From: Aromatoleum toluclasticum ATCC 700605
Lineage (GTDB): Bacteria > Pseudomonadota > Gammaproteobacteria > Burkholderiales > Rhodocyclaceae
Assembly (NCBI RefSeq): GCF_000378245.1
Contig: NZ_KB899506.1
Location: forward strand, 1 to 64,000
Length of the DNA stretch: 64,000 bases
Direction of reading: 5' to 3'
Shown here: piece after piece, positions 8,220-24,984 of the stretch
Numbering within the stretch: the stretch's first letter is position 1
Layout: each line of letters begins with the position of its first letter
The notes under the pieces: generated by a model
The model's database searches: none
The model's input: only the letters and a program-made list of their open reading frames with translations
What the model was told of the DNA's origin: nothing
Program-made: the position numbers and the translations under genes

Positions 8220-8259
8220 AAAAAAAGCGACCCGCAAGCCTGGAGCGCCTGCGGATCGC
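8220..8259 (-). terminator. Rho-independent terminator after amidohydrolase copy 1
   Basis: On the minus strand a long stem (arms 8227-8239 and 8247-8259, two mismatches, 7-base loop) is followed by seven U residues (plus-strand A run 8220-8226). It lies about 80 bases past the amidohydrolase stop and separates that gene from the lysR remnant and glyA. Confidence 0.85.
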
Positions 8260-8339
8260 GAGGGGGAGACACAATTCCCGCTGGGCGGGTCAAGCGCGGT
8301 AAGCCGGCAGAGGTAACCGCGCCCCCGCCACGAGCACGA

Positions 8340-9026: not shown

Positions 9027-9033
9027 GTGATCG

Positions 9034-9085
9034 TCTCCAGACAATGATTTCGGGGGTGAGCGACAAGAAGTTCTCTGTCTGGAGA
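9034..9085 (-). promoter_or_regulatory. Inverted repeat in amidohydrolase leader overlapping the RBS (copy 1)
   Basis: A perfect 10-bp inverted repeat (TCTCCAGACA at 9034-9043, TGTCTGGAGA at 9076-9085, 32-base spacer). On the minus strand the start-proximal arm contains the GGAG ribosome site 8 bases before ATG. The same repeat is kept at copy 2 although much of the spacer differs. It could be an RNA hairpin hiding the RBS, or a DNA operator around the transcription start; the sequence does not decide between them. Confidence 0.6.
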
Positions 9086-9139
9086 AATACTATTCTTTAT
9101 TGTTTCCTCATCTATTTACAGTTTCGCTTAGATAATTGC
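9086..9139 (-). promoter_or_regulatory. 54-bp shared promoter motif, site 1 (amidohydrolase copy 1)
   Basis: In plus-strand order it has AATACTAT at 9086, TATTTACAG at 9113 and ATAATTGC at 9132. The same three blocks occur with identical spacing (27 and 19 bases) at 17771, 23647 and 24650. Read on the minus strand this puts a -10-like ATAGTATT next to the gene and two upstream blocks at about -40 and -60, the usual layout of a LysR-activated promoter with a poor -35. Confidence 0.75.
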
Positions 9140-9185
9140 TCAAAATTGCAATAGCGACAGACAAGCCCCCTCTGTGCGGCGGACA

Positions 9186-9235
9186 AAGAAAACGCGGGCG
9201 CAATGCGCCGGCAAATCGCCGCACATTGCGCCCGC
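9186..9235 (-). terminator. Rho-independent terminator after the first Tsx-like gene
   Basis: A perfect 12-bp stem (9194-9205 and 9224-9235) with a further inner stem, followed on the minus strand by a U-rich tract (plus AAAGAAAA at about 9185-9192). It lies 45 bases past the stop at 9280 and separates the hyuA-hyuB-permease-porin unit from the amidohydrolase promoter. Confidence 0.85.
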
Positions 9236-9279
9236 AGAGGCCGCAGCGCAAACGCCGCGGCCGTGCTACTCAATACGGA

Positions 9280-10089
9280 TCAGAACTTCACGACGGCCAT
9301 GATGTTGGGGAAGCTCTCGTCGAGCCCGTCAATGCCGTACTTGTTGTGCCAGTACTGGTATTCGGTACCGATAAAGAATGCATCGCGGCGTCCCGAAACG
9401 AGTTCGCCCACGTCCAGCCGCAGCTGTGGCTGGCATAGCAGCTGGTTCACCGTGCCCTGCCCGCGCGCACCGATGTAGTCGCAGAAGCCCTCGAAACTCC
9501 AGTGTGTGGGGCCGATGCTGAACGGCAGTTGCCATACCGGCGTCACCTGGTAACTCTTGCGGTAATGGGTCGGGGCGCCGTCGAACTGCGAACGGTCGTC
9601 GTAGGCCAGCAGATCGACGTTGAAGTAGTTGAAACCGGGAAGCGCGAGATCCAGGGTCACGCCATACAGCAGGATCCGCGTCGCCGCGCCGCCGGTCGAC
9701 GAGCCTGCGTTCACCCCGGCCGTCAGGCTCACGTCCTTCAGCATCCCGCCGCCGAAGGTTGCGCCGCTTGTCTTGCCCAGGCTGAGGTAGTGGTAATACT
9801 CCCCGTAGATGTCGTTCGAACGCGGCGCATTCTTCGTTCCCCAGTAGGAATCGACGAAGAAGTAGTTGCGCCCGTAGGCATACCCGCTCACGTGTTGCAG
9901 GGTGACCGTCGTCTTCGTCACGTCGTCGTGAATGCCCGGATCGCGAAAGCCCGTTCCGTTCATGACCTGCACGTCGGTCTGGCTCCAGTCGGCTGCCGTC
10001 GCCTGCCCCGCTCCGGCTGCCAGCGCGAAGGCCAGGACGCTCGCCGCTGCGCTGCCGGCGGACTTGTGGTTCGTGGAAAACTGCTTCAT
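9280..10089 (-). CDS. Tsx-like outer-membrane channel protein 1
   Basis: Predicted outer-membrane beta-barrel (269 aa). The N-terminal signal peptide has a hydrophobic core SAAASVLAFALAAGAGQ with cleavage near ATAADW. The mature part alternates aromatic/polar residues (YGRNYFFVDSYWG, YHYLSLGKTSG) and ends in Phe (NIMAVVKF), the sorting signature of bacterial barrels. It resembles the nucleoside-specific channel Tsx family. It lies 39 bases after the NCS1 permease gene, suggesting outer-membrane entry of N-methylhydantoin or creatinine for that permease (inference). A second such protein is at 41348-42175. Confidence 0.8.
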   Translation of the reverse strand: MKQFSTNHKSAGSAAASVLAFALAAGAGQATAADWSQTDVQVMNGTGFRDPGIHDDVTKTTVTLQHVSGYAYGRNYFFVDSYWGTKNAPRSNDIYGEYYHYLSLGKTSGATFGGGMLKDVSLTAGVNAGSSTGGAATRILLYGVTLDLALPGFNYFNVDLLAYDDRSQFDGAPTHYRKSYQVTPVWQLPFSIGPTHWSFEGFCDYIGARGQGTVNQLLCQPQLRLDVGELVSGRRDAFFIGTEYQYWHNKYGIDGLDESFPNIMAVVKF

Positions 10090-10128
10090 TCCAGATGCTC
10101 CTTTTGTCGTTTTGGTAGCTGCCGGGAA

Positions 10129-11640
10129 TTACAGGTCGTTGCGGTGCGTCGAGGCCTCGCCCAACTGGTGCGACGGCAGGCGCGAAAAGCCGCGATCGGG
10201 GTGGTAGGTCCAGCTGTGGCTCATGCTGGTGGCGAGGAAGCGGTCGCTGTAGCGGGACGTGATCTCGGCCTGCGGGTAGCGCGGCAGCACCCACAGCCAC
10301 ATCAGCAGCAGATAGAGCGCGAAGCCGAGCGCGAAGCCCACGACGAAGGCCCAGGAGCCCGAGTAGAAGGCGGCCGCGCCACCGACGAGCCAGGTGACGA
10401 GACCCGCCGGATTGACGCCGCCGAGGAAGCGGAACTGGCCGTCGGCCTCGTAGAGATCGGGCACGTTGAGCCGACGGCGGCGGATCACGAAATAATCCGC
10501 AACCATGATCCCGCCGATCGTCGCCAGGAAGGACCCGTACGAGAACAGGAAGCTGAACAGGTTGTCGAGGATCAGCCAGGGCATCGACAGCGTGCCGATG
10601 ATGCCGGCGAGCACGATCGCCGTGCGGTAGCCGACCCACGGCGTGCCGGCATTCACGAAGGTGAGCGCGGCGGGAATCAGGTTCGCCGCATTGTTCGTCG
10701 ACCATTGCGCGAGAATCACCATCACCAGCAGGATGATCAGCGAGAAGCCGGTCGCACTGCCCTGGATCACCGTGATCGGATCCCAGTTGCCCGCTGCGAT
10801 GAAGGCGGCCGCGCCGATCACTGCCACCCAGGTCTGCGTCGCGGGCAGCGCGATGAGCTGCGCGAGGAAGACGTGACGGTTGCGCCGCACGAAGCTCTTC
10901 GTGCCTTCCTCGACCTTCAGGAAGCGGGTGATGTTGGGGATGTCGATCGCGAGCGTCGACCAGAAGGCCATGTTGGCGAGGAACAGCGTCAGGATCGTCG
11001 TGTCCTTGCCGCCGACCCAGTTCCAGATGTTGAGGCCCTTGGTCTGCGCCATCACGTCGAGCGTGTAATACATCCAGATCGAGATCGCGATGATCGCCGG
11101 CGCGGCGATGTCGGCAAGCTTCTCGACCGCCTTGATGCCGCAGGCGGTGTTCCAGATCTGCACGACCGCGAACAGCGCGTACCACAACGGCCAGCTCGAG
11201 AAGCCGGTCAGGTACTCGACGATGCCGTTGATCGCCAGCGCACCGAGGTAGGTCTGGATGCCGAACCAGATCGCCGCGACTACGCCACGGAAAAGCGCCG
11301 GCAGGTGCGTGCCGGATGTCCCGAAAGGCGCGCGCAGATAGACCGCGAACGACAGTCCATGCTCGGTGCCGATGTCGGCGGTGAGCGTCATCAGCAGCGC
11401 CAGCGCGACGTTGGCCGCGAGGATCACGCCGACGACCTGCCATAGCGGGAGCGATTCGACACCAGCCGCGCCGAGCTGGAAGGTGGCGATGATGACCGCG
11501 AGGCCGATCCAGATCCACACGAAACCCAGCGTACCGATGCTGCGCTGGGTATGCAGGACGGGCAGGATGGATTCTTCGAGAAGGTGGGACCGGGTGGCCC
11601 CCCCGGCAATCGGCGCGGTGGCCGTTTCGACATTGCTCAT
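10129..11640 (-). CDS. NCS1-family permease, probable N-methylhydantoin/creatinine importer
   Basis: Inner-membrane transporter (503 aa from MSNVETATAP) with about 12 hydrophobic segments. N-terminal features such as IGTLGFVWIWIGLAVIIATF match nucleobase-cation-symport 1 proteins (CodB, allantoin permease, hydantoin permease Mhp1). It follows hyuB by 162 bases and precedes the Tsx-like gene, so hydantoin-type substrates are likely. The exact substrate cannot be read from sequence. The start is set by the GGAG-like site upstream of 11640; the longer frame would run into unrelated upstream sequence. Confidence 0.87.
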   Translation of the reverse strand: MSNVETATAPIAGGATRSHLLEESILPVLHTQRSIGTLGFVWIWIGLAVIIATFQLGAAGVESLPLWQVVGVILAANVALALLMTLTADIGTEHGLSFAVYLRAPFGTSGTHLPALFRGVVAAIWFGIQTYLGALAINGIVEYLTGFSSWPLWYALFAVVQIWNTACGIKAVEKLADIAAPAIIAISIWMYYTLDVMAQTKGLNIWNWVGGKDTTILTLFLANMAFWSTLAIDIPNITRFLKVEEGTKSFVRRNRHVFLAQLIALPATQTWVAVIGAAAFIAAGNWDPITVIQGSATGFSLIILLVMVILAQWSTNNAANLIPAALTFVNAGTPWVGYRTAIVLAGIIGTLSMPWLILDNLFSFLFSYGSFLATIGGIMVADYFVIRRRRLNVPDLYEADGQFRFLGGVNPAGLVTWLVGGAAAFYSGSWAFVVGFALGFALYLLLMWLWVLPRYPQAEITSRYSDRFLATSMSHSWTYHPDRGFSRLPSHQLGEASTHRNDL

Positions 11641-11736
11641 GATGCGACTCCTCCTTGGTGACGACACGTTTTTCTTGGAAGGACGAACAGAAACCCGAAA
11701 GGCAGGCACCGGTACGCGCGCGCATGCCTCCCCGCA

Positions 11737-11754
11737 CCCGGCCTTGCGGCCGGG
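11737..11754 (-). terminator. Stem-loop between hyuB and permease gene
   Basis: A perfect 7-bp G/C stem with 4-base loop in the 162-base gap after hyuB. There is no U tract, so it is more likely a partial terminator or mRNA-stabilising hairpin that sets the permease below hyuAB. Confidence 0.4.
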
Positions 11755-11802
11755 CGGGTTGCGGAGCTACTGACTACGGGGAGACGGTACTGGCCGTGCC
11801 GC

Positions 11803-13611
11803 TCAGGCGGGCGCCGGCTCGGAAGACTGCGGGCTTGCAGCGACCTGCCGCTCCAGGCGGAGCAGCGTGCGGCGGGCATGGGTGGCCGCCACGTCGAGGA
11901 CGAGATCCTCGGAAATCACGACGCCATAGACCTCGCGGGCGTGCTCAAGTGTGCAGAAGTCGTCCATCACGTCTTCCAGCACCTGGCCCGCGGGACGATC
12001 GAGCGGATCGCCGTAGCCGCCGCCGCAGGGCGCGTAGTACGACATGCCGCCGCCCGCCGCCACGCGCAGGTTCGAGAACTTCGCGTAGGTGTCGTACTTC
12101 GTACCGTTCGCATGGAAGATCTCGACCCGCCCCGGGACCCCCTCCCTGCCGCCGAACGCGCCCCAGGGCACGTCGAGGTGACGTTCGGATTCGTGCGTGA
12201 TCGCGCCCTCGGTGAGCAGCCGCTGGCTCTTGACGACACCGATGCCGCCGCGGAACTGCCCCGCCCCCGGCATCACGTCGTCGCGCAGCTCGTAGCGATC
12301 ACACACCATCGGCAGGTGCATGCCCAGATCCTCGATCGGATTGTTGCGCGTGTTGGCCATCAGGTTGTCGATCGAGTCGGGGCCGTCCGAGCTGGGGCGT
12401 CCGCCATAGGCGCCCTCATTGACTTCGAGGAACACCCAGTAATCGCCATCCGGCTTGATGCCCGAGTACGCGGCGAAGGACAGCGTCGCGGAGTTGCCGG
12501 CGGTGACCCGCTTCGGGATCACCGGCGAGAGCGCCTTGATGATGAGGTCGATCATCCGGTTGCACTGAGTGAAGCGCGCCTCGGCTGCGGCCGGGTAGAT
12601 CGGATTGAAGATCGAGCCCTTGGGCGCCGTGACCTTGATCGGACGGAAGGAACCTTCGTTCGGCGGCAGCTTCACCTCCATCAGCGCGCTGTCGGTGAGC
12701 ATCGCGCGGAAGGCGCAGTAGCAGGCGGGTTTCGTCGAACCTTCGAAGGGCACGTTGAAGCCGGTCGGTACCTGGTCGGCCGAGCCGGTGAGGTCGACCT
12801 CCACGCTGTCGCCCGTGACACGCACGCACACCTTGATCGGCAGGCGTTTGTCGCGGTTCGCGCCATCGTCGTCGAGGTAGCCTTCGGCGAAGTATTCGCC
12901 GTCGGGGATCTCGGCGATGCGGCTACGCATCATCGACTCGGTGTAGTCCATCAGCTGGTCGGCAGCGCCGAACACGACTTCCTTGCCATAGGTGTCGAGC
13001 AGCTCCTGCATGCGCTGCGCGCCGAGCATCGCCGAGGCGATCTGCGCGTCGATGTCGTCCTTGGTCTGCTTCGCGGTGCGGCTGTTGTGACTGATGTACT
13101 GCCACAGGCCTTCGTTGCGCTTGCCCTGCTCGTAGAGCTTGATGCCGGCGAAGAGCATGCCTTCCGCGAACACATCCGGGATGTCGATGATCAGGCCCGG
13201 CGTCGCCGCGCCGATGTCGACGTGGTGCGCGGTGTTGGCCGCAAACGCCACGAGCTCGCCGCGCCAGAACACCGGCACCACGATGCACAGGTCGGGGCTG
13301 TGGCTCGAGCCGTAATACGGGTGGTTGTGAATGACGACGTCGCCCTCGTTCCACGTACCGCCCTGCAGGCAGGCGTCGATGCCGCGCAGGTAGGCGGGAA
13401 TGGAGCCGATGTGCAGCGGCGAGCCTTCGGACTCGGTCAGCGTGTTGAATTGCAGGTCGAAGAGCCCCGCGCCGATGTCCTGCGACTCGCGGATGATCGA
13501 CGAGAAGGACATGCGGTAGAGGACGTGGCCCATCTCTTCGGCGATGGTGTGCAGCGCGCCGCTGATGACCTGGAGGGTGATCGGGTCGACCTTGGTGTTC
13601 GACGGGTTCAT
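11803..13611 (-). CDS. hyuB: N-methylhydantoinase (ATP-hydrolysing) subunit B
   Basis: HyuB/oxoprolinase-B family protein (602 aa from MNPSNTKVDPITLQVISGAL). Family motifs visible: IIRESQDIGAGLFD, VVIHNHPYYGSSHSPDLCIV, ANTAHHVDIGAATPG and the C-terminal GGGYGDPLDRP. With HyuA it opens the hydantoin ring using ATP. The neighbours (N-carbamoylsarcosine amidohydrolase, creatininase, sarcosine oxidase) make N-methylhydantoin the likely substrate, yielding N-carbamoylsarcosine. It starts 10 bases after hyuA. Homologues also serve 5-oxoproline and acetone/acetophenone metabolism, so substrate assignment rests on context. Confidence 0.88.
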   Translation of the reverse strand: MNPSNTKVDPITLQVISGALHTIAEEMGHVLYRMSFSSIIRESQDIGAGLFDLQFNTLTESEGSPLHIGSIPAYLRGIDACLQGGTWNEGDVVIHNHPYYGSSHSPDLCIVVPVFWRGELVAFAANTAHHVDIGAATPGLIIDIPDVFAEGMLFAGIKLYEQGKRNEGLWQYISHNSRTAKQTKDDIDAQIASAMLGAQRMQELLDTYGKEVVFGAADQLMDYTESMMRSRIAEIPDGEYFAEGYLDDDGANRDKRLPIKVCVRVTGDSVEVDLTGSADQVPTGFNVPFEGSTKPACYCAFRAMLTDSALMEVKLPPNEGSFRPIKVTAPKGSIFNPIYPAAAEARFTQCNRMIDLIIKALSPVIPKRVTAGNSATLSFAAYSGIKPDGDYWVFLEVNEGAYGGRPSSDGPDSIDNLMANTRNNPIEDLGMHLPMVCDRYELRDDVMPGAGQFRGGIGVVKSQRLLTEGAITHESERHLDVPWGAFGGREGVPGRVEIFHANGTKYDTYAKFSNLRVAAGGGMSYYAPCGGGYGDPLDRPAGQVLEDVMDDFCTLEHAREVYGVVISEDLVLDVAATHARRTLLRLERQVAASPQSSEPAPA

Positions 13612-13621
13612 CTGCTTCTCC

Positions 13622-15718
13622 TTAGACGCGCTGCGCATTGATGTGGATGTTGCCCTTGCCCGAAACCTTGGCGACATAGCCCGGGGGCACCAGGGTCGTG
13701 GAGTCGTGCTGGACGATGATCGCGGGACCGGGGAGTTCATGGCCGGCTTTGAGTTTCTTGCGGTCGTAGCGCGGCGTGGCGTAGGTCTGCCGGTCGTCGA
13801 AGATCGTCGGGCGCTCGTACATCAGGGCCACTTCGGGCCCGCTGCCGGCGGCGTCCTCCAGTTCGGGCCAGGCCAGCGGCCGGGTGTGGGCGATGCCGAT
13901 GATACGGATCGTCACGATCTCGACATCCACGTCGTCGAAGGCCCAGCCGTAGTCGCGCTTGTGCTGCGCCTGGAAGTTCGCCTTCACCGCAGCGAGCTTC
14001 TCGCCGTCGATCCGGCCCTCGGGAATGTCCGCGCGCAGTTCGAAACCCTGGCCGTGATAGCGGCATTCAGCGATGCGCACGAAGTGCTGGTTGTCCGCCG
14101 GCACACCGTCGTCGTCCAGACGCTCGCGGCACAGCGCCGTGAGCTCGTCGATCACGCGGTTGAGCCTGTCGAGCGCGGGCTGTTCGACGTCCTTCAGCAG
14201 CGTCGGCACGGAGCGCGTGAACTCGTACTGCATGTCGGTGACGAGCAGCCCGATCGCCGCGGTGATCCCCGGCGCGGGCGGCACGATCACCTCGCGCGCC
14301 GACACCGCCTCGGCCAGGGCGACGCCGTTGAGCGGCCCCGCGCCGCCGAAAGGCGCGAGCGCGAACTTGCGCGGATCGAAGCCCTTGGCGACGGAGTTCG
14401 CACGGATCGCGAGCGACATGTTGGAGTTGAGGATGCGGATGATGCCCAGCGCCGCCTCTTCGACCGTGAGCCCGAGCGGCTCGGCGACCTTCGTGCGGAT
14501 CGCTTCGCGCGCCAGCTCGGCGTCGATCTCGATGCCGCCACCGAGGAAATGGTCGGGGTCGAGACGTCCGAGCACGACCTGGGCGTCGGTCACCGTCGGC
14601 TCCGTGCCACCCTTGCCGTAGCACGCCGGCCCCGGATCGGCACCCGCCGAACGCGGACCGACGCGGAAGGCGCCGCCCTCGTCGATGTACGCGATGGAGC
14701 CGCCCCCCGCCCCCATCGTCGCCAGGTCGATCATCGGCGCGAGGATCGGATAGGCACCGACGTAGGTGTCGCGCGGGTTCATGATCTTCACCTTACCGTC
14801 GGGGATCGTGCTGAAGTCCGCCGAGGTGCCGCCGATATCGACGGTGATGATGTTCTTCTCGTCCGACAGCGACCCGGCCCAGCGGCCACCCATCACGCCG
14901 CCGGCGAGCCCCGACATCAGGATTGAAACGGCCTCCGACGAACATTTCTCGACCGTCGACACGCCGCCGTTCGACTGCATGATGCGCAGGTGCGCCTTGA
15001 TCCCCGCATCGAGGAGCTTCTCCTCCAGATTCTTCAGATAGAGCGAGGTCTTGGGGCCGACATAGGCGTTCATCGCGGTCGTCGAGAAGCGCTCGTACTC
15101 GCGGATCACGTTGGCGACCTCGGACGAGCACGACACGTAGGCGTCGGGCAGCACCTCCCGAATGATCTCCTTGGCCCGGCGCTCGTGCGTGTTGTTGAGG
15201 AAGGAGTAAAGGAAGCAGACGATGACCGACTTGATGCCGCGGGCCTTGAACAGCTCCGCCGCCGCGCGCACCTCGTCCTCGTCCAGCGCCTGCGCCACGT
15301 CGCCGTGCGGCGGCATGACACGCTCGCTGATCGCGATGCGGTTGCGCCGCTTCACCAGCGGCCGAGACTGCCACGGGACGTCGAACTGCAGCGAGAAATT
15401 CTCCGGGCGCTTGTGCCGGCCGATATGCAGGATGTCGCGGAAGCCGCGCGTGGTGAGCATCCCGACTTCGGCGCCGTTGTGCTCGATGGTGATGTTCGTC
15501 GCCACCGTCGTCCCGTGCACGATCAGACGCACATCGCTCGGATAGATGCCGCCGATGCGGCAGATCTCCAGGATGCCGCGCAGCACCCCTTCCGATTGAT
15601 CCCACGGGGTGCTAGGCACCTTATGAACGTACACCCGATGCTTGCCCTGTTCCTCACCTTCGACCTCGAGCACCAGGTCCGTGAAGGTCCCTCCGACGTC
15701 AACTCCGATTCTTGCCAT
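13622..15718 (-). CDS. hyuA: N-methylhydantoinase (ATP-hydrolysing) subunit A
   Basis: HyuA/oxoprolinase-A family ATPase subunit (698 aa). The phosphate-binding motif IGVDVGGTFTDLVLE is at the N-terminus; a second nucleotide segment TVDIGGTSADFSTI and APFGGAGPLNGVALAE follow. It activates the hydantoin ring by ATP-dependent phosphorylation, with HyuB doing the hydrolysis (family knowledge). I chose ATG 15718 because GGAGA lies 7 bases upstream; the ATG at 15733 would overlap that site. A degenerate copy of the locus promoter motif lies at 15843-15898. Confidence 0.9.
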   Translation of the reverse strand: MARIGVDVGGTFTDLVLEVEGEEQGKHRVYVHKVPSTPWDQSEGVLRGILEICRIGGIYPSDVRLIVHGTTVATNITIEHNGAEVGMLTTRGFRDILHIGRHKRPENFSLQFDVPWQSRPLVKRRNRIAISERVMPPHGDVAQALDEDEVRAAAELFKARGIKSVIVCFLYSFLNNTHERRAKEIIREVLPDAYVSCSSEVANVIREYERFSTTAMNAYVGPKTSLYLKNLEEKLLDAGIKAHLRIMQSNGGVSTVEKCSSEAVSILMSGLAGGVMGGRWAGSLSDEKNIITVDIGGTSADFSTIPDGKVKIMNPRDTYVGAYPILAPMIDLATMGAGGGSIAYIDEGGAFRVGPRSAGADPGPACYGKGGTEPTVTDAQVVLGRLDPDHFLGGGIEIDAELAREAIRTKVAEPLGLTVEEAALGIIRILNSNMSLAIRANSVAKGFDPRKFALAPFGGAGPLNGVALAEAVSAREVIVPPAPGITAAIGLLVTDMQYEFTRSVPTLLKDVEQPALDRLNRVIDELTALCRERLDDDGVPADNQHFVRIAECRYHGQGFELRADIPEGRIDGEKLAAVKANFQAQHKRDYGWAFDDVDVEIVTIRIIGIAHTRPLAWPELEDAAGSGPEVALMYERPTIFDDRQTYATPRYDRKKLKAGHELPGPAIIVQHDSTTLVPPGYVAKVSGKGNIHINAQRV

Positions 15719-15842
15719 TCCAGTCTCCTTCATTTTCTGTTTATTGCGAATCGTGTCGCCAAGCGGCGCTGTGCAATTAGGCGATATCGAACCTCTCTAC
15801 TGCATGTTTGCTTACCCGGACAAGGAAACGCTTGCCGAACTG

Positions 15843-15898
15843 GATACTAGGCGCTGCACTATTGCTGGTCTATTGAGAATTTATCCTCGACTATTTTC
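15843..15898 (-). promoter_or_regulatory. Degenerate copy of the shared promoter motif (hyuA)
   Basis: GATACTAG at 15843, CACTATTGC at about 15857 and TCTATTGAGAATTT at about 15869 resemble sites 1-4 with a one- or two-base insertion; the distal block is weak. It lies 125 bases before the hyuA start, a plausible leader length. Confidence 0.45.
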
Positions 15899-16225
15899 TT
15901 TTGAGTCAACAATAAATATCGAGCAGCCGCTCGCGCAGGCCTTCCGCATAGGCAAAGGGCATAGCGCGAGCAAGGGCATTTCTGGTGGGGCACGGGGCCC
16001 GATTCGCGCGGCAAGGGGCGACGCACGCAGCCCATGCCGGCAGCACCGGGCGGCCGGGAACGCGGTTGAACTCATGCTGGGGGCAGGAACGGGCGTGCGG
16101 AGGCGACGCGGGACGCGCAGCGCCCCGGGCGGAAGCCGTTCGGGCGGGCAACGCACCGGCCGATGAACGTATCGCTCTCGCCCAGCGAACGGTCCTGCAC
16201 AGACCTGCGTCCGGCGGCAGGCCGC
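15899..16225. other. Gene-free stretch between fabF and hyuA
   Basis: G/C-rich sequence with no reading frame that looks protein-coding. Only the short A/T-rich upstream flank of hyuA (to about 15920) looks regulatory. Confidence 0.5.
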
Positions 16226-16279
16226 TCAGGTCGCGCCGGGTGAGGGGCTGATGAGTACTGCGGCTGCTGTTCCGGTCAT
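16226..16279 (-). CDS. Possible 17-residue peptide with strong RBS
   Basis: ATG at 16279 is preceded by GAGGAGACAGCA, a near-ideal Shine-Dalgarno at good spacing. It encodes MTGTAAAVLISPSPGAT and then stops. It sits downstream of fabF on the same strand. It may be a leader peptide, the first codons of a decayed gene, or chance; I do not recognise it. Confidence 0.25.
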   Translation of the reverse strand: MTGTAAAVLISPSPGAT

Positions 16280-16360
16280 TGCTGTCTCCTCGTTCGAATA
16301 TGTTTTCGAATCGTTGTGGGCGTGTGGGCCGGCACGCCCTCCGGTGCAGGATCTGCGGTC

Positions 16361-16386
16361 GGGCCGGTGCGCTCGCGCCCCGGCCC
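16361..16386 (-). terminator. Strong stem-loop downstream of fabF
   Basis: A 12-bp G/C stem with one mismatch and a 2-base loop, starting 15 bases past the fabF stop. It lacks a U tract on the minus strand, so it is terminator-like rather than a textbook intrinsic terminator. Confidence 0.5.
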
Positions 16387-16401
16387 TTCGCTCACAAGCG
16401 C

Positions 16402-17715: not shown

Positions 17716-17770
17716 CTCGTCCCCTTTTCGTCTTCGTCGCGGCCAATAGCCCGACAGTGAGTCCAGCGTG

Positions 17771-17824
17771 AATCCTAGTCGACACTATTGCGAAGATTAT
17801 TTACAGTTCTAGTTTAATTATTGC
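17771..17824 (-). promoter_or_regulatory. 54-bp shared promoter motif, site 2 (fabF/lysR divergent region)
   Basis: Blocks AATCCTAG (17771), TATTTACAG (17798) and ATTATTGC (17817) have the same spacing as sites 1, 3 and 4. The site lies between the fabF start (17715) and the lysR start (17866), the classic place for a LysR protein to control its neighbour and itself. Confidence 0.8.
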
Positions 17825-17865
17825 TGAAAATGATTATTATCCCGTTCAACCATCGTGAGGCATCC

Positions 17866-18777
17866 ATGCGTTTCGAAATCCGCCACATGCGCGCCTTCAT
17901 TGCCGTCGCAGAAGAACTGCAGTTCCGCCCGGCCGCCGAGCGGCTTCACATGACGCAGTCGGCGCTCACGCGCACCATCCAGCATCTGGAGGAAGCCGTC
18001 GGGGCGGAGTTGCTGTCACGCACGACGCGCGTGGTGCATCTCACCGACGCCGGCCGCACCTTCCTGTACGAGTGCCGTCTCGCGCTCGGGCACATCGAAA
18101 AGGCCTCGCTCCTCGCGCAGGCCGCCGCCGACGGCAAGGTCGGCTACCTGCGCATCGCGTACATGGACTTCGCGATAAACGGCAAGCTGCCCATGATCAT
18201 CGAGCGGTTCCTGCAGACCCATCCCGGCATCAAGGTCGAGCTCTTCCACTTTCCGAGCTCCAAGCAGAAGGAGGCCCTGCTCGAATCTCGGATCGATGTC
18301 GGCTTCCTGATCGGCCCCTTCGAATCCCCGTCGGTGCGCCAGTTCATGATCGAGCGCGAGGACCTCGTGGTGCTGTTGCCGGCCGCCCATCCGCTCGCGG
18401 CCAAGCCTTCGATCTCCATCCGCGACCTCGCCAACGAGAAATTCATCCTCGGTTCCAAGGACTCGTGGGAAGCGTTCCGGACCCATTTCTTCGCGCTGTG
18501 CCACGCGGCCAACTTTTCCCCCCTCGTCGCGCAAGAGGCATCCACGAGCGACGGCATCTTCGGACTGGTCGCCGCGAACATCGGCGTGGCACTGTACGCG
18601 CGCTGCGCGGAGAACATCCAGCGCAAGGGCCTCGTGATCCGCCCGCTCGCGGGTCGGCAGAAGCCCCTGGAAACCATGGTGTGCTGGCGCAAGGACATTC
18701 CAACCCCCACCGTCGAGCGCTTCGCCGAGTTCCTGCACGACAACGCGGACGAATTCGGCATCGCGCAGGAGGCATGA
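17866..18777 (+). CDS. LysR-family transcriptional regulator
   Basis: Regulator of 303 aa from MRFEIRHMRAFIAVAEELQF. The N-terminal winged helix-turn-helix (FRPAAERLHMTQSALTRTIQHLEEAVGAELLSR, residues ~18-50) is followed by a periplasmic-binding-like effector domain. An upstream TTG at 17821 would keep the frame open, but ATG 17866 has GTGAGG before it and starts exactly where family members do. Divergent from fabF across promoter site 2, it is the best candidate to bind the 54-bp motif. A broken paralogue lies at 8093-8215. Confidence 0.93.
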   Translation: MRFEIRHMRAFIAVAEELQFRPAAERLHMTQSALTRTIQHLEEAVGAELLSRTTRVVHLTDAGRTFLYECRLALGHIEKASLLAQAAADGKVGYLRIAYMDFAINGKLPMIIERFLQTHPGIKVELFHFPSSKQKEALLESRIDVGFLIGPFESPSVRQFMIEREDLVVLLPAAHPLAAKPSISIRDLANEKFILGSKDSWEAFRTHFFALCHAANFSPLVAQEASTSDGIFGLVAANIGVALYARCAENIQRKGLVIRPLAGRQKPLETMVCWRKDIPTPTVERFAEFLHDNADEFGIAQEA

Positions 18778-18862
18778 GGATAGCGGGGGGCGCGGACCTC
18801 ACTATTGCAGTTTGCGACGCCATTGTTGCCCTTGTTCGCAACAGTCTCATTCATCATGCGGC

Positions 18863-18898
18863 AATAAAGGCGCCCCGCCGCCCGGGGGGGGCAGCGGG
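18863..18898 (-). terminator. Terminator after the TRAP transporter operon
   Basis: Stem 18874-18883 / 18889-18898 (one mismatch, 5-base loop), followed on the minus strand by GGGGCGCCTTTATT. It is 25 bases past the dctM stop and faces the end of lysR. Confidence 0.55.
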
Positions 18899-18923
18899 TT
18901 GCAAGCAGAGAACGATGCGCCGG

Positions 18924-20213
18924 TCAGAAGAAGTGCTCGGGCACGAAGGTCACGATTTGCGGGAAGGCCGTGAACAGCGCGATCACGCTGAGCATGATCA
19001 GCCAGTACGGCACGGTGGCCCACGACGCCTCGCCGAGGCTCACCTTGCGCCTGGAGATCGTCACGAGCACGAAGAGGTTGAGCCCCACCGGCGGCGTGAT
19101 CATGCCGACCTCCATCAGGATCGTGACGATGATGCCGAACCAGACCGGATCGAACTGCATCGACATCATCAGCGGGAAGGCGATCGGCAGCGTCATCAGC
19201 AGTAGCGAGATGCCGTCGAAGAAGCAGCCCAGCACCAGATACACGAGCACGATCGCGAACAGCACCTCGTAGCGGCTCAGACCCATCTTCGCGACCCAGT
19301 CGACGAGCTCCTTGGGCAGGCCAAGGACGCTGATCGCCTGCGCGAGGATCAGCGTGCCGAGCAGAACCATCGCGATCGTGCCGAACATCAGCACCGAGGT
19401 CTTGAACGACTGCCACAGCTTCGGCAACGTCAGGTCACCCCACACGAAGCCCAGCACCGTCGCCGCGACCACGCCCAGTGCGGCGGCCTCGGTGGTCGTC
19501 GCGAGCCCCATGTAGATCGTGCCGAGCACGAAGAAGATCAGGATGGGCAGCGGCCAGATAGCGCGCAGGCCGGTGAAGATCTCGCCCCAGCTCGGCCGCT
19601 CGTCTTCCTTCGGCACCAGATCCTTGCGGAAGTAGCACAGGCCCGCGATGTAAGCCGAGAACAGGCCGGCGATGAGCAGGCCCGGCACGATGCCGGCGAG
19701 GAATAGCTTGCCGATCGACACGTCCTGCGTCGCGCCGTAGATCAGCAGCGACAGACTGGGCGGGATCAGCAGGCCCAGCGTGCCGCCGGCCGCGAGCGAG
19801 GCGATGACGGTCGCCGGGTCGTAGCCGCGCTTGACCAGCTCGGGATAACCGACCGAGCCGATCGCCGCTGCGGTCGACGAGCTCGACCCGCTGACCGCGC
19901 CGAACACCGTGCATACCGCGATGTTGGTGTGCAGCAGCTTGCCCGAGCAGCGGTGGAACAGCGGCGTGAGGCCGTTGTAGATGCGCCCGGAGATGCCGCT
20001 CGCCATCAGGATGTCACCGAGGAAGATGAACAGCGGCACGGCGCTCAGCGTGAAGTCGGTGAAGGTGTTCCACACCGCCTGCACCGCGAGCGAGCTCGCG
20101 TCGCCCACCTGGAACTGCAGCAGGATCAGGCCGGTGAGCCCGAGCGCGGCGCCCAGCACCGCCCCGGTGACCATCAGCACGAGCATGCTGGTCGAAAGGA
20201 TGCCCCAGGTCAT
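18924..20213 (-). CDS. dctM: TRAP transporter large permease subunit (DctM family)
   Basis: Membrane protein (429 aa, about 12 hydrophobic segments) forming the transport channel of a tripartite ATP-independent importer driven by an ion gradient. Family motifs include VFLGDILMASGISGRIYNGL, AIGSVGYPELVKRGYD and ITPPVGLNLFVL. The start MTWGILSTSM overlaps the dctQ stop by 4 bases. The TRAP operon dctP-dctQ-dctM sits between lysR and the M19-family gene. The substrate is probably an organic acid linked to the pathway, such as N-carbamoylsarcosine or sarcosine (inference). Confidence 0.93.
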   Translation of the reverse strand: MTWGILSTSMLVLMVTGAVLGAALGLTGLILLQFQVGDASSLAVQAVWNTFTDFTLSAVPLFIFLGDILMASGISGRIYNGLTPLFHRCSGKLLHTNIAVCTVFGAVSGSSSSTAAAIGSVGYPELVKRGYDPATVIASLAAGGTLGLLIPPSLSLLIYGATQDVSIGKLFLAGIVPGLLIAGLFSAYIAGLCYFRKDLVPKEDERPSWGEIFTGLRAIWPLPILIFFVLGTIYMGLATTTEAAALGVVAATVLGFVWGDLTLPKLWQSFKTSVLMFGTIAMVLLGTLILAQAISVLGLPKELVDWVAKMGLSRYEVLFAIVLVYLVLGCFFDGISLLLMTLPIAFPLMMSMQFDPVWFGIIVTILMEVGMITPPVGLNLFVLVTISRRKVSLGEASWATVPYWLIMLSVIALFTAFPQIVTFVPEHFF

Positions 20214-20737
20214 AGCACTTCCTCCTCGCCCGCGAGGGAGAACAGCGACGGCCGGCCGGCGAGCTGGCGCAGGCTGTCGAAGAGCTGGCCGAGGCTGACG
20301 AGCACCATCACCACGGTGCACAGCGGCAGCATCGCCATCCACGGCCACAGCAGCATCGAGCCGATGTCCGAACGCGCGTCGAGCAGGCGCGAGTAGTCGG
20401 CGAAATCGTAGGAGAGCGCGAGGAACCACGCACAGAAGGTAGTGAGGATCACGGTGGCGCCTATGTCGACGAAGTGGCGCAGCGGCCCCTGCAGGCCGCG
20501 CGTGACGATGTCGAGGATGATGTGACGGCGCATCACGAGGCCCAGCGGCATCGCGAGGAAGGCCATCGTGGCGAACAGCAGGCCGATGAATTCATCGGAA
20601 AAGGCGAAGGGTGCGCCGACGAAGTAGCGCATCACGACGCCCAGGAACACGAACAGGCTCATCAGCACGGCGGCCACGGCCGCGAGCCGGTTCATGCCGA
20701 GCGCGAGCCATTCCAGGCAGCGGATCAGGACTTGCAT
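20210..20737 (-). CDS. dctQ: TRAP transporter small permease subunit (DctQ family)
   Basis: Four-helix membrane protein (175 aa from MQVLIRCLEWLALGMNRLAA). FVFLGVVMRYFVGAPFAFSDE in helix 2 and the MPLGLVMRRHIILDIVTRGL loop are typical. It pairs with DctM in the inner membrane. A longer open frame upstream is rejected since 20737 gives the family length. It starts 79 bases after dctP ends and overlaps dctM. Confidence 0.9.
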   Translation of the reverse strand: MQVLIRCLEWLALGMNRLAAVAAVLMSLFVFLGVVMRYFVGAPFAFSDEFIGLLFATMAFLAMPLGLVMRRHIILDIVTRGLQGPLRHFVDIGATVILTTFCAWFLALSYDFADYSRLLDARSDIGSMLLWPWMAMLPLCTVVMVLVSLGQLFDSLRQLAGRPSLFSLAGEEEVL

Positions 20738-20816
20738 CTTGGACTCCAGCGAGAGGTACGGAAACGATCGGGGCGGCCGCTGCCGCAAGCTTGGCCGGCC
20801 GCCCAGGCGACACCGC

Positions 20817-21839
20817 TCAGGGTGTCAGCTTTGCAATCGCCTCCTTCATTCGCTGGTAGTACTCGGTGCCCTTGGGGCCCGCCGATTTCGCCATGTCCGC
20901 CCAGGCCTTGTCGGATGCGGCCGCGAAAGCACTCACGTCACCCTCGGGGAAGGGCTGCAGCATGGTGATGCCGAGCGCCTTGCGTTCCTCGATGGCGGCG
21001 CTCTCGCGCTGCGGACTGACGGCTGCCTCGCGCGTCTTGGCCCACATCGCCTCGCCCGCTTCGGCAAGCACCGCCTGCAGATCCTTGGGCAGGCGCGACC
21101 ACGCCTTGTCGCTCACGCCGAACATCCACGGCACGGCGGCCCACGGGTGCAGGTAAGCCTCGTACTTCGCGACTTCCTGCAGCGATACCGTCTTGGCCAC
21201 CGTCGACAGGTAGTAGGCGCAGTCGACCACGCCGGTCTGCAGGGCCATGTACATGCTGTTCTGCGGAATGACCTGCGCCGCCACGTCCAGCCCCTGGAAA
21301 GTGCTCACCAGGTGGCTGCCCCACACGCGCAGCTTCTTCCCTTTAAGCTGGGACAGGTTGTTGATCGGCTCCTTGCAGTGCACGCCGACGTTGAACACCG
21401 GGCTCACGACACCGCCAACGGTATGGATGTGCCACTTCGAGTAGCCCTCCTCGTAGATCGCGCGCATTGTCGGCAGCAGCTGGAGATGCTGCTGGGGCGT
21501 GCGGATGGCGCCCTGCACATACACAACGCCCAGCTCGGGGGCGTCGCGCGTGAAGTACTCTCCATACAGCATCGCCATGTCCACCGCCCCGGCCTGCATG
21601 ATGCGCAGCAGATCCGTGTCCTTCAGGCCCAGCGATCCTGCGTGGAACACGTTGATCTTCAGGCGACCGTTCGAGCGCGCCGCCACGTCGTCGGCGAACT
21701 GCTGCAGATATTTCGCCTCAGGGCGGGATTCGACGATCTGGCTGTGCATCTTCAATTCGATCGTATCGGCCGCCGCTGCGACACCTGCGACCGCCAGCAT
21801 TGCTGCGGCAACGATCCTTTTCAACATCAAGATATTCAC
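20817..21839 (-). CDS. dctP: TRAP transporter substrate-binding protein (DctP family)
   Basis: Periplasmic ligand-binding subunit (340 aa). It starts at a GTG (21839), chosen because AAAGGAGA lies 8 bases upstream; the signal peptide VNILMLKRIVAAAMLAVAGV follows with cleavage near AAADTIELKM. The DctP fold shows in SLGLKDTDLLRIMQAGAVDM and VVDCAYYLSTVAKTVSLQEV. The ligand-binding arginine position could not be fixed by eye. First gene of the dctPQM operon. Its ligand would be informative for the pathway. Confidence 0.92.
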   Translation of the reverse strand: MNILMLKRIVAAAMLAVAGVAAAADTIELKMHSQIVESRPEAKYLQQFADDVAARSNGRLKINVFHAGSLGLKDTDLLRIMQAGAVDMAMLYGEYFTRDAPELGVVYVQGAIRTPQQHLQLLPTMRAIYEEGYSKWHIHTVGGVVSPVFNVGVHCKEPINNLSQLKGKKLRVWGSHLVSTFQGLDVAAQVIPQNSMYMALQTGVVDCAYYLSTVAKTVSLQEVAKYEAYLHPWAAVPWMFGVSDKAWSRLPKDLQAVLAEAGEAMWAKTREAAVSPQRESAAIEERKALGITMLQPFPEGDVSAFAAASDKAWADMAKSAGPKGTEYYQRMKEAIAKLTP

Positions 21840-22414
21840 GGGCACTTCTCCTTTGGTATTCGAATAGCCACGAACGTCAGACCGCGTTTCATTGCACGAC
21901 TCCCTGGCCGACCTCGTCACCGTTGATGCGGGCAATTCGCACGCAACATCCTTTGCACGATCCATCATTGAATTAAATGAATTGGCAATCAGGTTCTAGC
22001 AATTACGATGCCAGATTAGAACGAGAAGCAAATGACCCATATCCGGCACATTGCCACTGAATCGGCAGCTTTTTTCGGTTCTTATTATTGTTTCGTAGCC
22101 ATCGTCTTTGTCTCCTGCACCAGGCGAGTGCAGATCATGGTTATTGTGATTCCTTTTGGGGCGTTGCTTTATTAGTCGTTTATTTGATTTTCTCCATTCC
22201 GGGTTATTGACAGATCGCACATTCTGTCCGCGCAATGCACCTTTTGAATTTCCCCGAGTTTCCTCCCTGCGGACATCCTGGAATGCGTGGCATCGCGAGA
22301 TACGGACGATCGACGTCTGTTGAATCCGCGAGTAGCTGAAAAATGGTGGCATTTCGCGGCAACCTGATGCCGCGCCGGGTTATGCCAAACTGGAAAACCG
22401 CACCGCGAGCGTGC
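21840..22414. other. Gene-free region upstream of dctP
   Basis: 575 bases, clearly more A/T-rich than the surroundings, especially 21960-22200. The frame at 21996-22352 has no family resemblance, no good RBS and odd composition, so I do not call it. The part next to dctP presumably holds its promoter. I looked for the three-block motif here and did not find it. Confidence 0.5.
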
Positions 22415-23485
22415 TTATTCGCCCCACACGTCTTTCAGCAAGCGCAGCCAGTTTTCGCCCATGATCCGCCGCGTCTGCGTCGGAGTGAATCCGCCTTTCA
22501 GCAAAGCGGCGGTCAGATTGGGATATTCGGCGACGGTACGAATTCCGCGAGGATTGACGATTTCGCCGAAATTGGTCAGGCGGCGCGCATAGCCCTTGTC
22601 ATGAACGAGGCGCGCAAAAAACGCCGCGTCGTGGCCTTGCGTGAAATCCGTGCCGATGCCGACATTCTCTTCGCCCACGAGATCGAATACGTAGCGAATG
22701 GCTTCGACATAGTCATCGACCGTGGAGTTCACGCCGTTTTTCAGGAATGGCGTAAACATCGTCACGCCGACGAAGCCGCCATGGTCCGCGATGAATTTCA
22801 ATTCGGAGTCCGATTTGTTTCGCGGATGATCCTTGAGGCCGCTCGGCAGGCAATGCGAATAGCAAACCGGCTTGCGCGATTCGGCTATTGCTTCGCGCGC
22901 GGTATTCGGGCCGACATGCGACAGATCGCAAAGAATTCCCACTCGGTTCATTTCGACGAGGATCTCGCGCCCGAATCCCGACAAGCCGCCATCCCGTTCG
23001 TAGCAGCCGGTCCCGACGAGGTTCTGCGTGTTGTAGCACAGCTGCACGACCCCGACGCCGAGGTCCTTGAATATCTGCACGTATCCCAGGCGGTCCTCGA
23101 AGGCCGTCGCGTTCTGGAACCCGAGGATGACGCCCGTCCGGCCTTCACGCTTGGCCCGCTCGATATCCGCGGTCGTGCGCACCTTCAGCAGGCAGTCGGC
23201 GTTCGCTTCGATCAGCGCGTTCATCTGCGCGATCTGGTCCACGGTGTCACCAAACCCTTCCCAGATCGACACCGTGCAGTTTGCCGCAGAGAGGCCGCCT
23301 CGCCGCATGTCCTCGAAGAGATCGCGATCCCACTTCGCGACAATCAGACCGTCAATCACGACGGCGTCGCGGTGCAGCTGCGCGGCCACGTCGCCCGGGT
23401 CCGCAAGCGGCTGATGGCCGGTCAGGCCGCCTTCGCCGGGAGACAGGGAATCGAGGAAAGAGGTGGAACCGTTCGTCGCGGACAT
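22415..23485 (-). CDS. Peptidase M19 (renal dipeptidase) family protein with altered metal site
   Basis: TIM-barrel protein (356 aa) of the membrane dipeptidase family. His190 (CDLSHVG), His211 (CYSHCLPSG) and Asp280 (GIGTDFTQG) match conserved ligands. The N-terminal His-x-Asp of classical members reads DGLIV (residues 45-49), and the bridging Glu is Gln124 (GFQNATAFE). A binuclear zinc peptidase is thus doubtful; it may be a mononuclear amidohydrolase. Proteins like this are known beside glycine betaine/dimethylglycine genes, from memory. It has promoter site 3 upstream, placing it in the amidohydrolase regulon. Activity on a sarcosine-containing or carbamoyl compound is an inference. Confidence 0.82.
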   Translation of the reverse strand: MSATNGSTSFLDSLSPGEGGLTGHQPLADPGDVAAQLHRDAVVIDGLIVAKWDRDLFEDMRRGGLSAANCTVSIWEGFGDTVDQIAQMNALIEANADCLLKVRTTADIERAKREGRTGVILGFQNATAFEDRLGYVQIFKDLGVGVVQLCYNTQNLVGTGCYERDGGLSGFGREILVEMNRVGILCDLSHVGPNTAREAIAESRKPVCYSHCLPSGLKDHPRNKSDSELKFIADHGGFVGVTMFTPFLKNGVNSTVDDYVEAIRYVFDLVGEENVGIGTDFTQGHDAAFFARLVHDKGYARRLTNFGEIVNPRGIRTVAEYPNLTAALLKGGFTPTQTRRIMGENWLRLLKDVWGE

Positions 23486-23646
23486 GCTTCCGATCTCCCG
23501 TTCGTGCCCTCGCGCCTCAGGACGGCGATGGCGGCGTGAATGAACCCTGTACGCTCAGGCTGAAGGGATATCGCAGCCGAGCTGCTTGCCAGCATGGGCG
23601 AGATATTGTCTGTGCAGACCGTCCGTCCGACGCTCCCTCTCACCCG
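23486..23646. other. Leader of the M19-family gene
   Basis: 161 bases between promoter site 3 and the start codon. No structure or reading frame stands out; the leader is longer than at the two amidohydrolase genes. Confidence 0.4.
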
Positions 23647-23700
23647 AATCCTAGTCGAAGCCATTTCCGGATCTATTTACAGTTCGGTCATGATTATTGC
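23647..23700 (-). promoter_or_regulatory. 54-bp shared promoter motif, site 3 (M19-family gene)
   Basis: AATCCTAG (23647), TATTTACAG (23674) and ATTATTGC (23693), spaced as in sites 1, 2 and 4. The first eleven bases are identical to site 2. Confidence 0.78.
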
Positions 23701-23848
23701 GATCCGTGCGAACTATCCGAACACCATTGGGACATTTGCATACGCAGCACCGTCCTGCCCGTCCATCACCGGAAAAATGCACGACCTGAGGTAGGTCACA
23801 AGGAGGGAGAACACTGCGCACGGCCACGAGAACGCCGCACGGGCGAGT

Positions 23849-23903
23849 TCGGGGCACACGGGCCGGCGACGGGGGGACGGCCACCCCCCCGCCGCGTGCC
23901 CGA
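23849..23903 (-). terminator. Large stem-loop after amidohydrolase copy 2
   Basis: Outer arms 23849-23857 and 23896-23903 plus inner G/C arms (23864-23867 with 23891-23894; G run 23871-23876 with C run 23884-23890), starting right at the stop codon. No U tract; probably a terminator or 3' protecting hairpin. Confidence 0.5.
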
Positions 23904-24590
23904 TCAGCCCTTCATCGAGTACAGGTAATCGACGCAGCGATCGACCGACTCGACGTCGGCGAACTTGGCATCGATGTCGAACAGGTTCCACTCGACCGCG
24001 CCGGGTACGCGGTCGCCGATGCACTCGCGCACGGCGATGGTGCGGAAGCCTTCGGCCAGGCCGTCGCACAGCGTCGTGCGCACGCAGGCCGACGCGGTCA
24101 CGCCGGTCACGAGGATGGTGTCGACACCCGCCGCGCGCAGGAAGCCCGCGAGGTAGGTGCCATGGAAGGAGCTCGCGCGCTTCTTGATCAGCACCTGCTC
24201 ACCGGCGATCGGCGCGATGCGCGAGTCGATTGCCCAGATGTTCTCGTCTTCCTGATTGACGACATCGACCGGGATCTTGTTGTGCCACAGACCCATGTCG
24301 GTGTGCGGATTCTTGCGGTCCGTGACCTGGTAGCAGGTCGTCACGTGGATCACCGGATGGTTGTTCTCGCGGCAGGCTTTCAGCAGGCGCTGCACGCCGG
24401 GGATGATCTCGTCGTCGATCTTCTCGCAGGTGAAGGGGTTGCCGGGACGGGTCCAGGCGTTGGCGAGGTCGACGTTGATCAGCGCCGGCCTCTTGCCGAA
24501 GCCCACGCGGCGCTGGAAGCCGCGGTCCTGGTACAGCTTGGTGGCTTCGGCGAAGGCTTGCTTGAGCATGTCGTTGAGTTGGCTTTCCAT
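23904..24590 (-). CDS. N-carbamoylsarcosine amidohydrolase, copy 2
   Basis: Second 228-residue isochorismatase-like amidase, identical to copy 1 except at residues 2, 3, 22 and 34 (E/D, S/T, D/E, R/K). The triad Asp41, Lys136/137, Cys169 is intact, so both copies should be active. DNA differences are few and mostly silent, implying a recent duplication or gene conversion. The match covers the gene, the RBS-overlapping inverted repeat and the promoter motif, then fades quickly past the stop codon. It makes sarcosine, CO2 and ammonia from N-carbamoylsarcosine. Expression is monocistronic by layout. Confidence 0.93.
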   Translation of the reverse strand: MESQLNDMLKQAFAEATKLYQDRGFQRRVGFGKRPALINVDLANAWTRPGNPFTCEKIDDEIIPGVQRLLKACRENNHPVIHVTTCYQVTDRKNPHTDMGLWHNKIPVDVVNQEDENIWAIDSRIAPIAGEQVLIKKRASSFHGTYLAGFLRAAGVDTILVTGVTASACVRTTLCDGLAEGFRTIAVRECIGDRVPGAVEWNLFDIDAKFADVESVDRCVDYLYSMKG

Positions 24591-24596
24591 GTGTCG

Positions 24597-24649
24597 TCTC
24601 CAGACAGTGTGGGTTTCGGGGTTGCGACAAAGGCGTCTTTGTCTGGAGG
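24597..24649 (-). promoter_or_regulatory. Inverted repeat in amidohydrolase leader overlapping the RBS (copy 2)
   Basis: Arms TCTCCAGACA (24597-24606) and TGTCTGGAGG (24640-24649): nine Watson-Crick pairs plus one G-U. The 33-base spacer differs from copy 1 except for TTTCGGGG and GCGACAA (plus strand). The RBS GGAG lies in the start-proximal arm. Confidence 0.6.
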
Positions 24650-24703
24650 AATACTAGCCAATACTATTGATCTGAATATTTACAATTATCATTCGATTAT
24701 TGC
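24650..24703 (-). promoter_or_regulatory. 54-bp shared promoter motif, site 4 (amidohydrolase copy 2)
   Basis: AATACTAG (24650), TATTTACAA (24677) and ATTATTGC (24696), with the same 27- and 19-base spacing as the other sites. Confidence 0.78.
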
Positions 24704-24984
24704 CGTTTGTGCACATAAAGCGATAGACGCGGCTTCGTATGCCCCTACCCGGCACGGGACGAGCATCGGGCGTCGCGGCGAGTCAGCGCGGCGCAGCACC
24801 GACCGGATTGCAGGGCGCAATGGCGCGGAATGTAAAGGCGCACATGACAAGCCATCACAAATCTGCACAAACGCTCGAAACCCCGTTTACAACTGCTTGC
24901 TAGCCTCCGAATCGGCAGCGAAGAAATCCTGCTGTCCTCGACGGTCCCGGACGATCGTCGGGTCATATATTCGGAGACAAAACA
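24704..24984. other. Divergent intergenic region, amidohydrolase copy 2 / nhaC
   Basis: No coding frame convinces. The nhaC ribosome site CGGAGA lies 8-9 bases before 24985. An nhaC promoter must be here but I cannot place its hexamers with confidence. Confidence 0.45.

Follow-up and report, generated by a model that had tools for sequence, protein, structure and literature searches.

Genes and repeated elements of the cluster

The stretch of DNA analysed here (the window) covers 64,000 nucleotides of Aromatoleum toluclasticum ATCC 700605 (contig NZ_KB899506.1, positions 1 to 64,000). We saw in it a cluster of catabolic genes together with a gene for a LysR-type regulator:

8340–9026, − strand: amidase copy 1, isochorismatase fold; closest solved relative 1nba, N-carbamoylsarcosine amidohydrolase
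10129–11709, − strand: NCS1-type permease behind hyuB (domain search)
11803–13740, − strand: hyuB-type subunit, overlapping hyuA (domain search)
13622–15733, − strand: hyuA-type hydantoinase/oxoprolinase subunit (domain search)
16402–17715, − strand: fabF-type beta-ketoacyl synthase (TIGR03150 above cut-off)
17866–18777, + strand: LysR-type regulator, proposed binder of the sites below (Pfam HTH_1 and LysR_substrate; orthologue searches)
18924–21968, − strand: TRAP transporter genes (DctP, DctM), without a site of their own and with a 446-bp gap to the M19 gene; membership uncertain
22415–23485, − strand: M19-family enzyme, close to 2i5g ‘amidohydrolase’ (E 6.5e-168)
23904–24590, − strand: amidase copy 2, 98% identical to copy 1

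The product of 17866–18777 matched PF00126 and PF03466 above cut-off (75.1 and 147.8 bits); its nearest solved proteins were BenM, 7w06, CatM and 1ixc, the last of which we take to be CbnR. For the amidase, 1nba was the best of nine solved sequences at E ≤ 1e-10 (E 4.7e-71). Its best NCBIfam model, biuret amidohydrolase, gave 49.4 bits against a cut-off of 370, and HyuA and HyuB were also below the cut-offs of their best NCBIfam models (caprolactamase); the substrate and the enzyme specificities named here are, therefore, predicted ones. The genes soxB, glyA and sdaA adjoin the cluster and would handle sarcosine, glycine and serine. As the amidase is closest to 1nba, HyuA and HyuB are hydantoinase/oxoprolinase subunits and these three genes lie next door, the encoded pathway probably runs from N-methylhydantoin via N-carbamoylsarcosine to sarcosine, or is a close relative of this route.

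Amidase copies are 96–99% identical within and between genomes, with one to two intact copies per genome; this similarity may reflect gene conversion. The amidase of Azoarcus sp. KH32C is located on NC_020548.1 (plasmid collection; contig C2 of genome G008, 737,589 bases), and amidase relatives with 69–77% identity were seen on plasmid records of Mesorhizobium, Paracoccus and Ancylobacter. A fabF-type synthase is a repeated member of this catabolic regulon and is present in the loci of Caballeronia humi and Paraburkholderia franconis as well; the M19 protein is a frequent companion of the amidase/LysR pair, in some loci together with a transporter of the TRAP or ABC type.

Five copies of a repeated element, putative operator-promoters, were found in the cluster (all with offsets counted from the first base of block A; bits and match starts are those of profile R1, described below):

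9086–9155, − strand: operator-promoter of amidase copy 1 (B+C scan, logo; profile match at 9085, 43.6 bits); offsets 0–69 as written on the + strand, promoter pointing to lower coordinates
15844–15913, − strand: weaker hyuA operator (profile match at 15842, 25.1 bits, E 8.2e-5, outside the training set)
17771–17840, − strand: operator in the fabF/lysR divergent gap (exact pattern, logo; profile match at 17770, 60.3 bits)
23647–23716, − strand: operator of the M19 gene (exact pattern, logo; profile match at 23646, 52.8 bits)
24650–24719, − strand: operator of amidase copy 2 (B+C scan, logo; profile match at 24648, 64.6 bits)

A sequence-only reading of the window had described a 54-bp motif of three blocks (A, B and C) that recur at +0, +27 and +46 at four sites, with a weaker copy before hyuA. 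In pattern scans of the window all three blocks were present, equally spaced, at the four sites. The exact three-block pattern matched twice (17771 and 23647), with a mean of 0.00 matches expected from 100 shuffles of the window; blocks B and C, with up to three mismatches, matched exactly four times (9113, 17798, 23674 and 24677) against 0.01 expected, a count of four being reached in none of the 100 shuffles. The site of amidase copy 1 deviates from the consensus, with block A reading AATACTAT and block C reading ATAATTGC. The weaker hyuA copy proved real as well: its E-value of 8.2e-5 was obtained genome-wide with a profile made without any hyuA site, and the window-only profile scan gave E = 8.9e-7. 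Repetition and fixed spacing were borne out; the length was not, the element being ∼70 bp long, and the list of three blocks was incomplete: a fourth conserved block occupies +13 to +20, a fifth about +62 to +69. The motif had also been reported missing before glyA, dctP and creatinase; indeed, the unfiltered profile scan of the window showed no further match below E = 5.1, thus no site before glyA, sdaA, soxB, dctP or the M24/creatinase-type gene at 35772–37058. Among the reading frames tested, none was identified as a creatininase gene.

Distribution of the sites in the genome and in the genus

Stretches from eight genomes, the window included, contained 25 sites in total. Profile R1, derived from sequence only, was built from 22 sites of the eight congeneric genomes, with all three hyuA sites excluded; the 23-site matrices used below omit two hyuA sites (those of the window and of G008). 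We scanned the genome (5,924,795 bases in 46 contigs) with R1. The first four matches were training sites, the fifth, before hyuA, was not, and the sixth had an E-value of 5.1; with the hyuA copy real and the next match at this level, the regulon is local. Such a scan had been proposed earlier, with matches at many unrelated genes to speak against a regulon; it returned five sites, all in the cluster. We rejected a genome-wide regulator, since in the profile scan of the 5.9-Mb genome no match beyond the cluster sites fell below E = 5, and also a chance repeat, given shuffle expectations of about zero and the restriction of the genome-wide matches to the cluster. The genome scan with blocks B and C (up to three mismatches) produced five matches, the four sites and one on contig C15. 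The latter was not counted as a site: its supposedly variable spacer recurs unchanged in several congeners, indicating a conserved segment of another kind.

A LysR orthologue (E ≤ 1e-60) was present in 8 of 17 congeneric genomes, and exactly these eight had B+C matches with no more than one mismatch. Over the 17 genomes R1 gave 31 matches; 24 of them had E < 0.1, all in the eight lysR-bearing genomes and none in the other nine, with the remaining seven at E 4.4–5.3. The other hyuA sites were weak (E 0.07 in G012; in G008 the site was missed by the profile, though a position with five mismatches is present). By this correlation the sites are linked to the cluster. Among 297 sampled genomes of the family, a full-length amidase (E ≤ 1e-40) was found only in the five orthologue-bearing genomes; in G270, from the same sample, an amidase fragment is situated at a contig end and the neighbouring genes match the cluster. 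The LysR protein of G051 was not accepted as an orthologue (42% identity, with no amidase match there at E ≤ 1e-40). As LysR is co-inherited with the cluster, co-occurrence alone can neither name the binder nor exclude another cluster-borne regulator.

The gene order is shuffled among the eight genomes; despite this, the same genes are preceded by sites. A site was observed before lysR in all eight genomes, before each of the 13 intact amidase copies and before both M19 genes; fabF has its own site in six of eight genomes and stands behind an amidase in the other two (G008 and G012). Three of seven hyuA copies have a weak site of their own, with the other four located behind an amidase or an amidase remnant. 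As in distant species, G008 and G012 have the lysR site between the divergent amidase and lysR. Three relatives (G006, G007 and G015) have dctP behind a site-bearing amidase; there, the TRAP transporter probably belongs to the LysR circuit. No convincing site was found in the 446-bp M19–dctP gap of the window; a candidate dctP site was dismissed, as its best score with the mixed matrix (see below) was 15.0 in the window and 12.3 in locus L052, against maxima of 8.3–15.8 in five shuffled windows. This gap (21969–22414) is well conserved with G016, with a mean column identity of 89% in a two-sequence alignment, and has no recognisable site. The amidase remnant of G016 (L051:6977–7213) lacks its middle part, with operator and leader looking intact.

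One could think of the repeats as promoter pieces copied together with duplicated amidase genes, with no regulator in common. Amidase copies are indeed nearly identical (96–99%), and their sites have flanking sequence in common; however, the fabF/lysR, M19 and hyuA sites do not adjoin the amidase copies in the window, and over eight genomes the spacers vary with blocks and distances fixed. We consider such an origin highly improbable.

At 26619–27680, beside an NhaC-type antiporter, the window encodes an AraC-type regulator with a DJ-1/PfpI domain. A second regulator in or near the cluster, such as this one, could bind the sites in place of LysR, and an AraC-type gene is found near the cluster in the window as well as in G006, G007 and G012. 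On the other hand, no AraC match was seen in the fetched stretches of the site-bearing genomes G008, G011, G015 and G016 (the G015 contig ends early), lysR stands beside a site in eight of eight genomes, and related operators are present in amidase–lysR gaps elsewhere; we think this possibility quite improbable, even if less so than the copying of promoters. The attribution to the LysR protein of 17866–18777, made already in the sequence-only reading, gained support from the co-occurrence in the genus, from the site upstream of lysR in every genome and from related operators near orthologous lysR genes or their amidase genes in other taxa. The AraC/DJ-1 gene might be a candidate regulator of a second circuit, that of the site-free genes; two regulatory circuits side by side would be compatible with the lack of a site before glyA, soxB and the creatinase-type gene.

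Architecture of the putative operator

Two conserved features beside blocks A, B and C stood out in the 23-site logo: the block ACTATTGC, at +13 to +20, and the end of the element, at about +64 to +69. Block C and a partner arm at about +62 to +69 form an inverted repeat, which in Aromatoleum-type sites reads ATTATTGC-N8-RCAATAAT. Arm complementarity was 0.554 at placement 46 with gap 8 and 0.56 at two placements with the same centre (mean over all placements 0.282), a same-centre placement being the top of the dyad scan. Arms swapped between sequences paired as well as true pairs did (0.562 versus 0.554), thus the symmetry reflects a shared consensus, without covariation support; the outer arm is poor in several of the sites. 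The usual box of LysR-type operators is T-N11-A; the dyad of the Aromatoleum-type consensus is even-centred, T-N12-A, and does not have this form.

The first base of block A is 60 bp from the start codon in both amidase copies, 56 bp in fabF, 111 bp in hyuA and 162 bp in M19. The earlier placement of the blocks at −10, −40 and −60 holds relative to an inferred transcription start only, not from the start codons. If TAGNAT, the reverse of block A, serves as the −10 element, then the dyad (offsets 46–69) would be centred at about −63.5, near the −65 expected of a recognition dyad; block B would span about −43 to −33, near the −35 expected of an activation site; the +13 block would cover about −26 to −19. 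According to PMC8407307, LysR proteins contact an RBS at around −65 together with ABS parts at around −35 and −10. The layout fits a LysR-type operator with a −10 element, a proximal half-site, an activation site at ∼−35 and a recognition dyad at ∼−63.

The same layout bears on the direction of control. LysR could bind the sites and mainly repress, with relief by the inducer: the activation and proximal half-sites overlap the core promoter or sit inside it, and repression by LysR proteins in the uninduced state has been described (PMC8407307). Against this, no −35 hexamer was seen by eye at the expected distance from the −10 element, which fits a need for activation, and a dyad near −63 fits activators. 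We find predominant repression unlikely, though not as improbable as the two explanations above, and favour LysR as an activator.

Related operators in other bacteria

We scanned a collection holding one genome per species, using a LysR alignment and two peptide patterns, and obtained at least 56 loci. They included loci from Aromatoleum evansii, A. toluvorans, A. toluolicum and Azoarcus sp. Aa7 (∼89–94% LysR identity), from Caballeronia, Paraburkholderia and Pandoraea (58–60%) and from other Proteobacteria (∼43–53%); the last three loci of the scan, with 26–34% identity, are probably not orthologues. In 35 of the 54 loci with a LysR match an amidase gene is divergent from lysR within 500 bp, and M19, dctPM, hyuAB or soxB are nearby in many of them.

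Profile R1 found no match in 30 distant loci, thus Gibbs sampling and matrices were used there. The Gibbs set consisted of 28 non-redundant distant gaps with Aromatoleum types excluded (six of 34 were dropped, five for similarity and L114 for length; L116 was trimmed). The motif obtained, approximately RAT-ATCAATT-N8-ATTGATGC with a weaker mirror arm behind it, had a score of 834 versus at most 392 in six shuffled sets. Controls were mononucleotide shuffles with 3 starts of 40 rounds, compared with 12 starts of 60 rounds for the real set, two of which finished at only 451–487. When compared with the Aromatoleum logo, the motif had its best register at offset 0 (r = 0.54; next 0.42 at +18; other strand at most 0.37). 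The dyad scan of the 28 gaps also had its top at +46 with gap 8 (0.545, mean 0.265; swapped arms 0.513), again T-N12-A, with some gaps reading as gap 7 by eye.

The 23-site Aromatoleum-type matrix ranked the amidase–lysR gap first, out of all positions in a locus, in 15 of the 28 distant loci and within the top ten in 24, its best position being the exact Gibbs position in 17. With 60 column-permuted matrices the first ranks averaged 5.9 (maximum 12) and the top-ten ranks 19.5 (maximum 25), so that AT-richness explains much in these loci and the ordered signal is moderate. The signal was clearer in Caballeronia-type loci, with first rank in 8 of 12 (permuted mean 1.1, maximum 4) and top ten in 11 of 12 (permuted mean 6.8, maximum 11). 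When the B–C spacing was varied, the mean best score in these Caballeronia-type loci was highest for the distance seen in Aromatoleum (16.5, followed by 14.0 at +3); for the 28 distant loci the same test was flat (6.2 at 0, 6.1 at −1, 6.0 at −3).

The mixed matrix was trained on the 28 distant gaps; matches in L080–L083 are thus not independent, the Caballeronia-type loci being outside the training. In all eight amidase-bearing Caballeronia-type loci its top match was upstream of the amidase or hyuA, with scores of 25.9–33.0 versus at most 11.3 in four shuffled loci; no match was found in L071, L076 and L077, loci without an amidase. A match before lysR was seen in L107, L115 and L117 and a weak one in L098, with the best match of L088 located elsewhere. 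In the promoter direction L075 reads ATTAATAG-N8-GTAATAAA-N8-AACTGTAATTG-N6-CAATAATG-N5-CCTATAGT, close to the window series GCAATAAT / AACTGTAAATA / GCAATAGT / CTAGGATT, save for a one-base shift of the last two blocks. In the more distant loci no fixed register was seen for the −10 and proximal blocks.

A possible hairpin in the amidase leaders

The amidase leaders (9024–9085 and 24588–24649, − strand) carry CTCCAGACA...TGTCTGGAG, and a GGAG resembling a Shine-Dalgarno sequence lies in the 3′ arm, ahead of the ATG. Over 14 leaders, 12 of them distinct, pairing in the 9-bp stem amounts to 94.4%, compared with 23–41% when slid. Only one pair changes on both sides (in two sequences), a result reached by 52 of 500 shuffles; covariation support for the stem is, therefore, weak. 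Folding z-scores were −1.15 to −3.32 in six leaders. No two-sided change was found in a competing small leader hairpin, and no Rfam family reached the gathering threshold in the region 8000–25500.

Discussion

The sites, their confinement to the cluster, the co-occurrence with lysR and the related operators at orthologous loci were all computed here. In our view the repeats are likely to serve as operator-promoters for one dedicated regulator of the LysR type, the product of 17866–18777, which would act as an inducer-dependent activator at the five sites; we hold our confidence at this level because the choice between activation and repression is made from the layout. In the promoter direction, a site would consist of an outer recognition arm (∼−75 to −68), N8, the inner arm GCAATAAT (−59 to −52), N8, the activation site AAYTGTAAATA (−43 to −33), N6, the proximal half-site GCAATAGT (−26 to −19), N5 and the −10 element TAGNAT. 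We picture a LysR oligomer that is anchored on the dyad and extends to the activation half-sites; with an inducer bound, supposedly a pathway metabolite, it would help RNA polymerase at promoters that have no recognisable −35 hexamer. The five sites would place under its control the two amidase copies, hyuAB with the permease, the M19 gene, fabF and lysR itself, as the site before lysR suggests autoregulation.

The T-N12-A dyad, even-centred, sets this operator apart from the usual T-N11-A operators of LysR proteins. Otherwise the system resembles LysR-type activators with RBS/ABS operators, of which BenM, CatM and 1ixc are nearest, in its protein domains and its divergent or adjacent target gene, and also in having a dyad at ∼−63 with further sites at ∼−35 and −10 (layout according to PMC8407307). 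Unlike in those systems, the targets here are an N-carbamoylsarcosine-type amidase, hyuAB, M19 and fabF, with five sites in one cluster. This would be a classical LysR regulon, a new and well-conserved member rather than a new mechanism.

Glycine betaine and sarcosine are the province of GbdR/SouR-type AraC regulators; the neighbouring sarcosine metabolism is alike, but the regulator family is different (AraC versus LysR). In Corynebacterium glutamicum, AmtR of the TetR family controls the creatine/creatinine genes crnA, creT, cshA and hyuB, according to PMC8864220. The same kind of enzymes (cshA, hyuB) is under one regulator in that system; however, AmtR is described there as a global nitrogen repressor, whereas the regulator here is a dedicated, cluster-borne LysR. 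No LysR regulator of N-carbamoylsarcosine or N-methylhydantoin genes was found described in the open-access PMC subset.

One could speculate further, with a good deal of doubt, that an undescribed LysR subfamily with a T-N12-A operator is devoted to the N-carbamoylsarcosine-type amidase pathway in Alpha-, Beta- and Gammaproteobacteria, that in Aromatoleum types the leader hairpin hides the ribosome-binding site of the amidase, and that the M19 enzyme, the beta-ketoacyl synthase and the TRAP transporter take part in an uncharted branch of creatinine/hydantoin breakdown.

The analysis offers a candidate regulator for a creatinine-related pathway, along with its operator model and regulon; our searches of the open-access PMC subset showed only a TetR-family nitrogen repressor in Corynebacterium for such a pathway. 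Through the shared operator, the M19 enzyme and the fabF-type synthase are linked with the amidase, which predicts new members of the pathway; a small, local regulon with a defined operator would make a clean system for inducer discovery.
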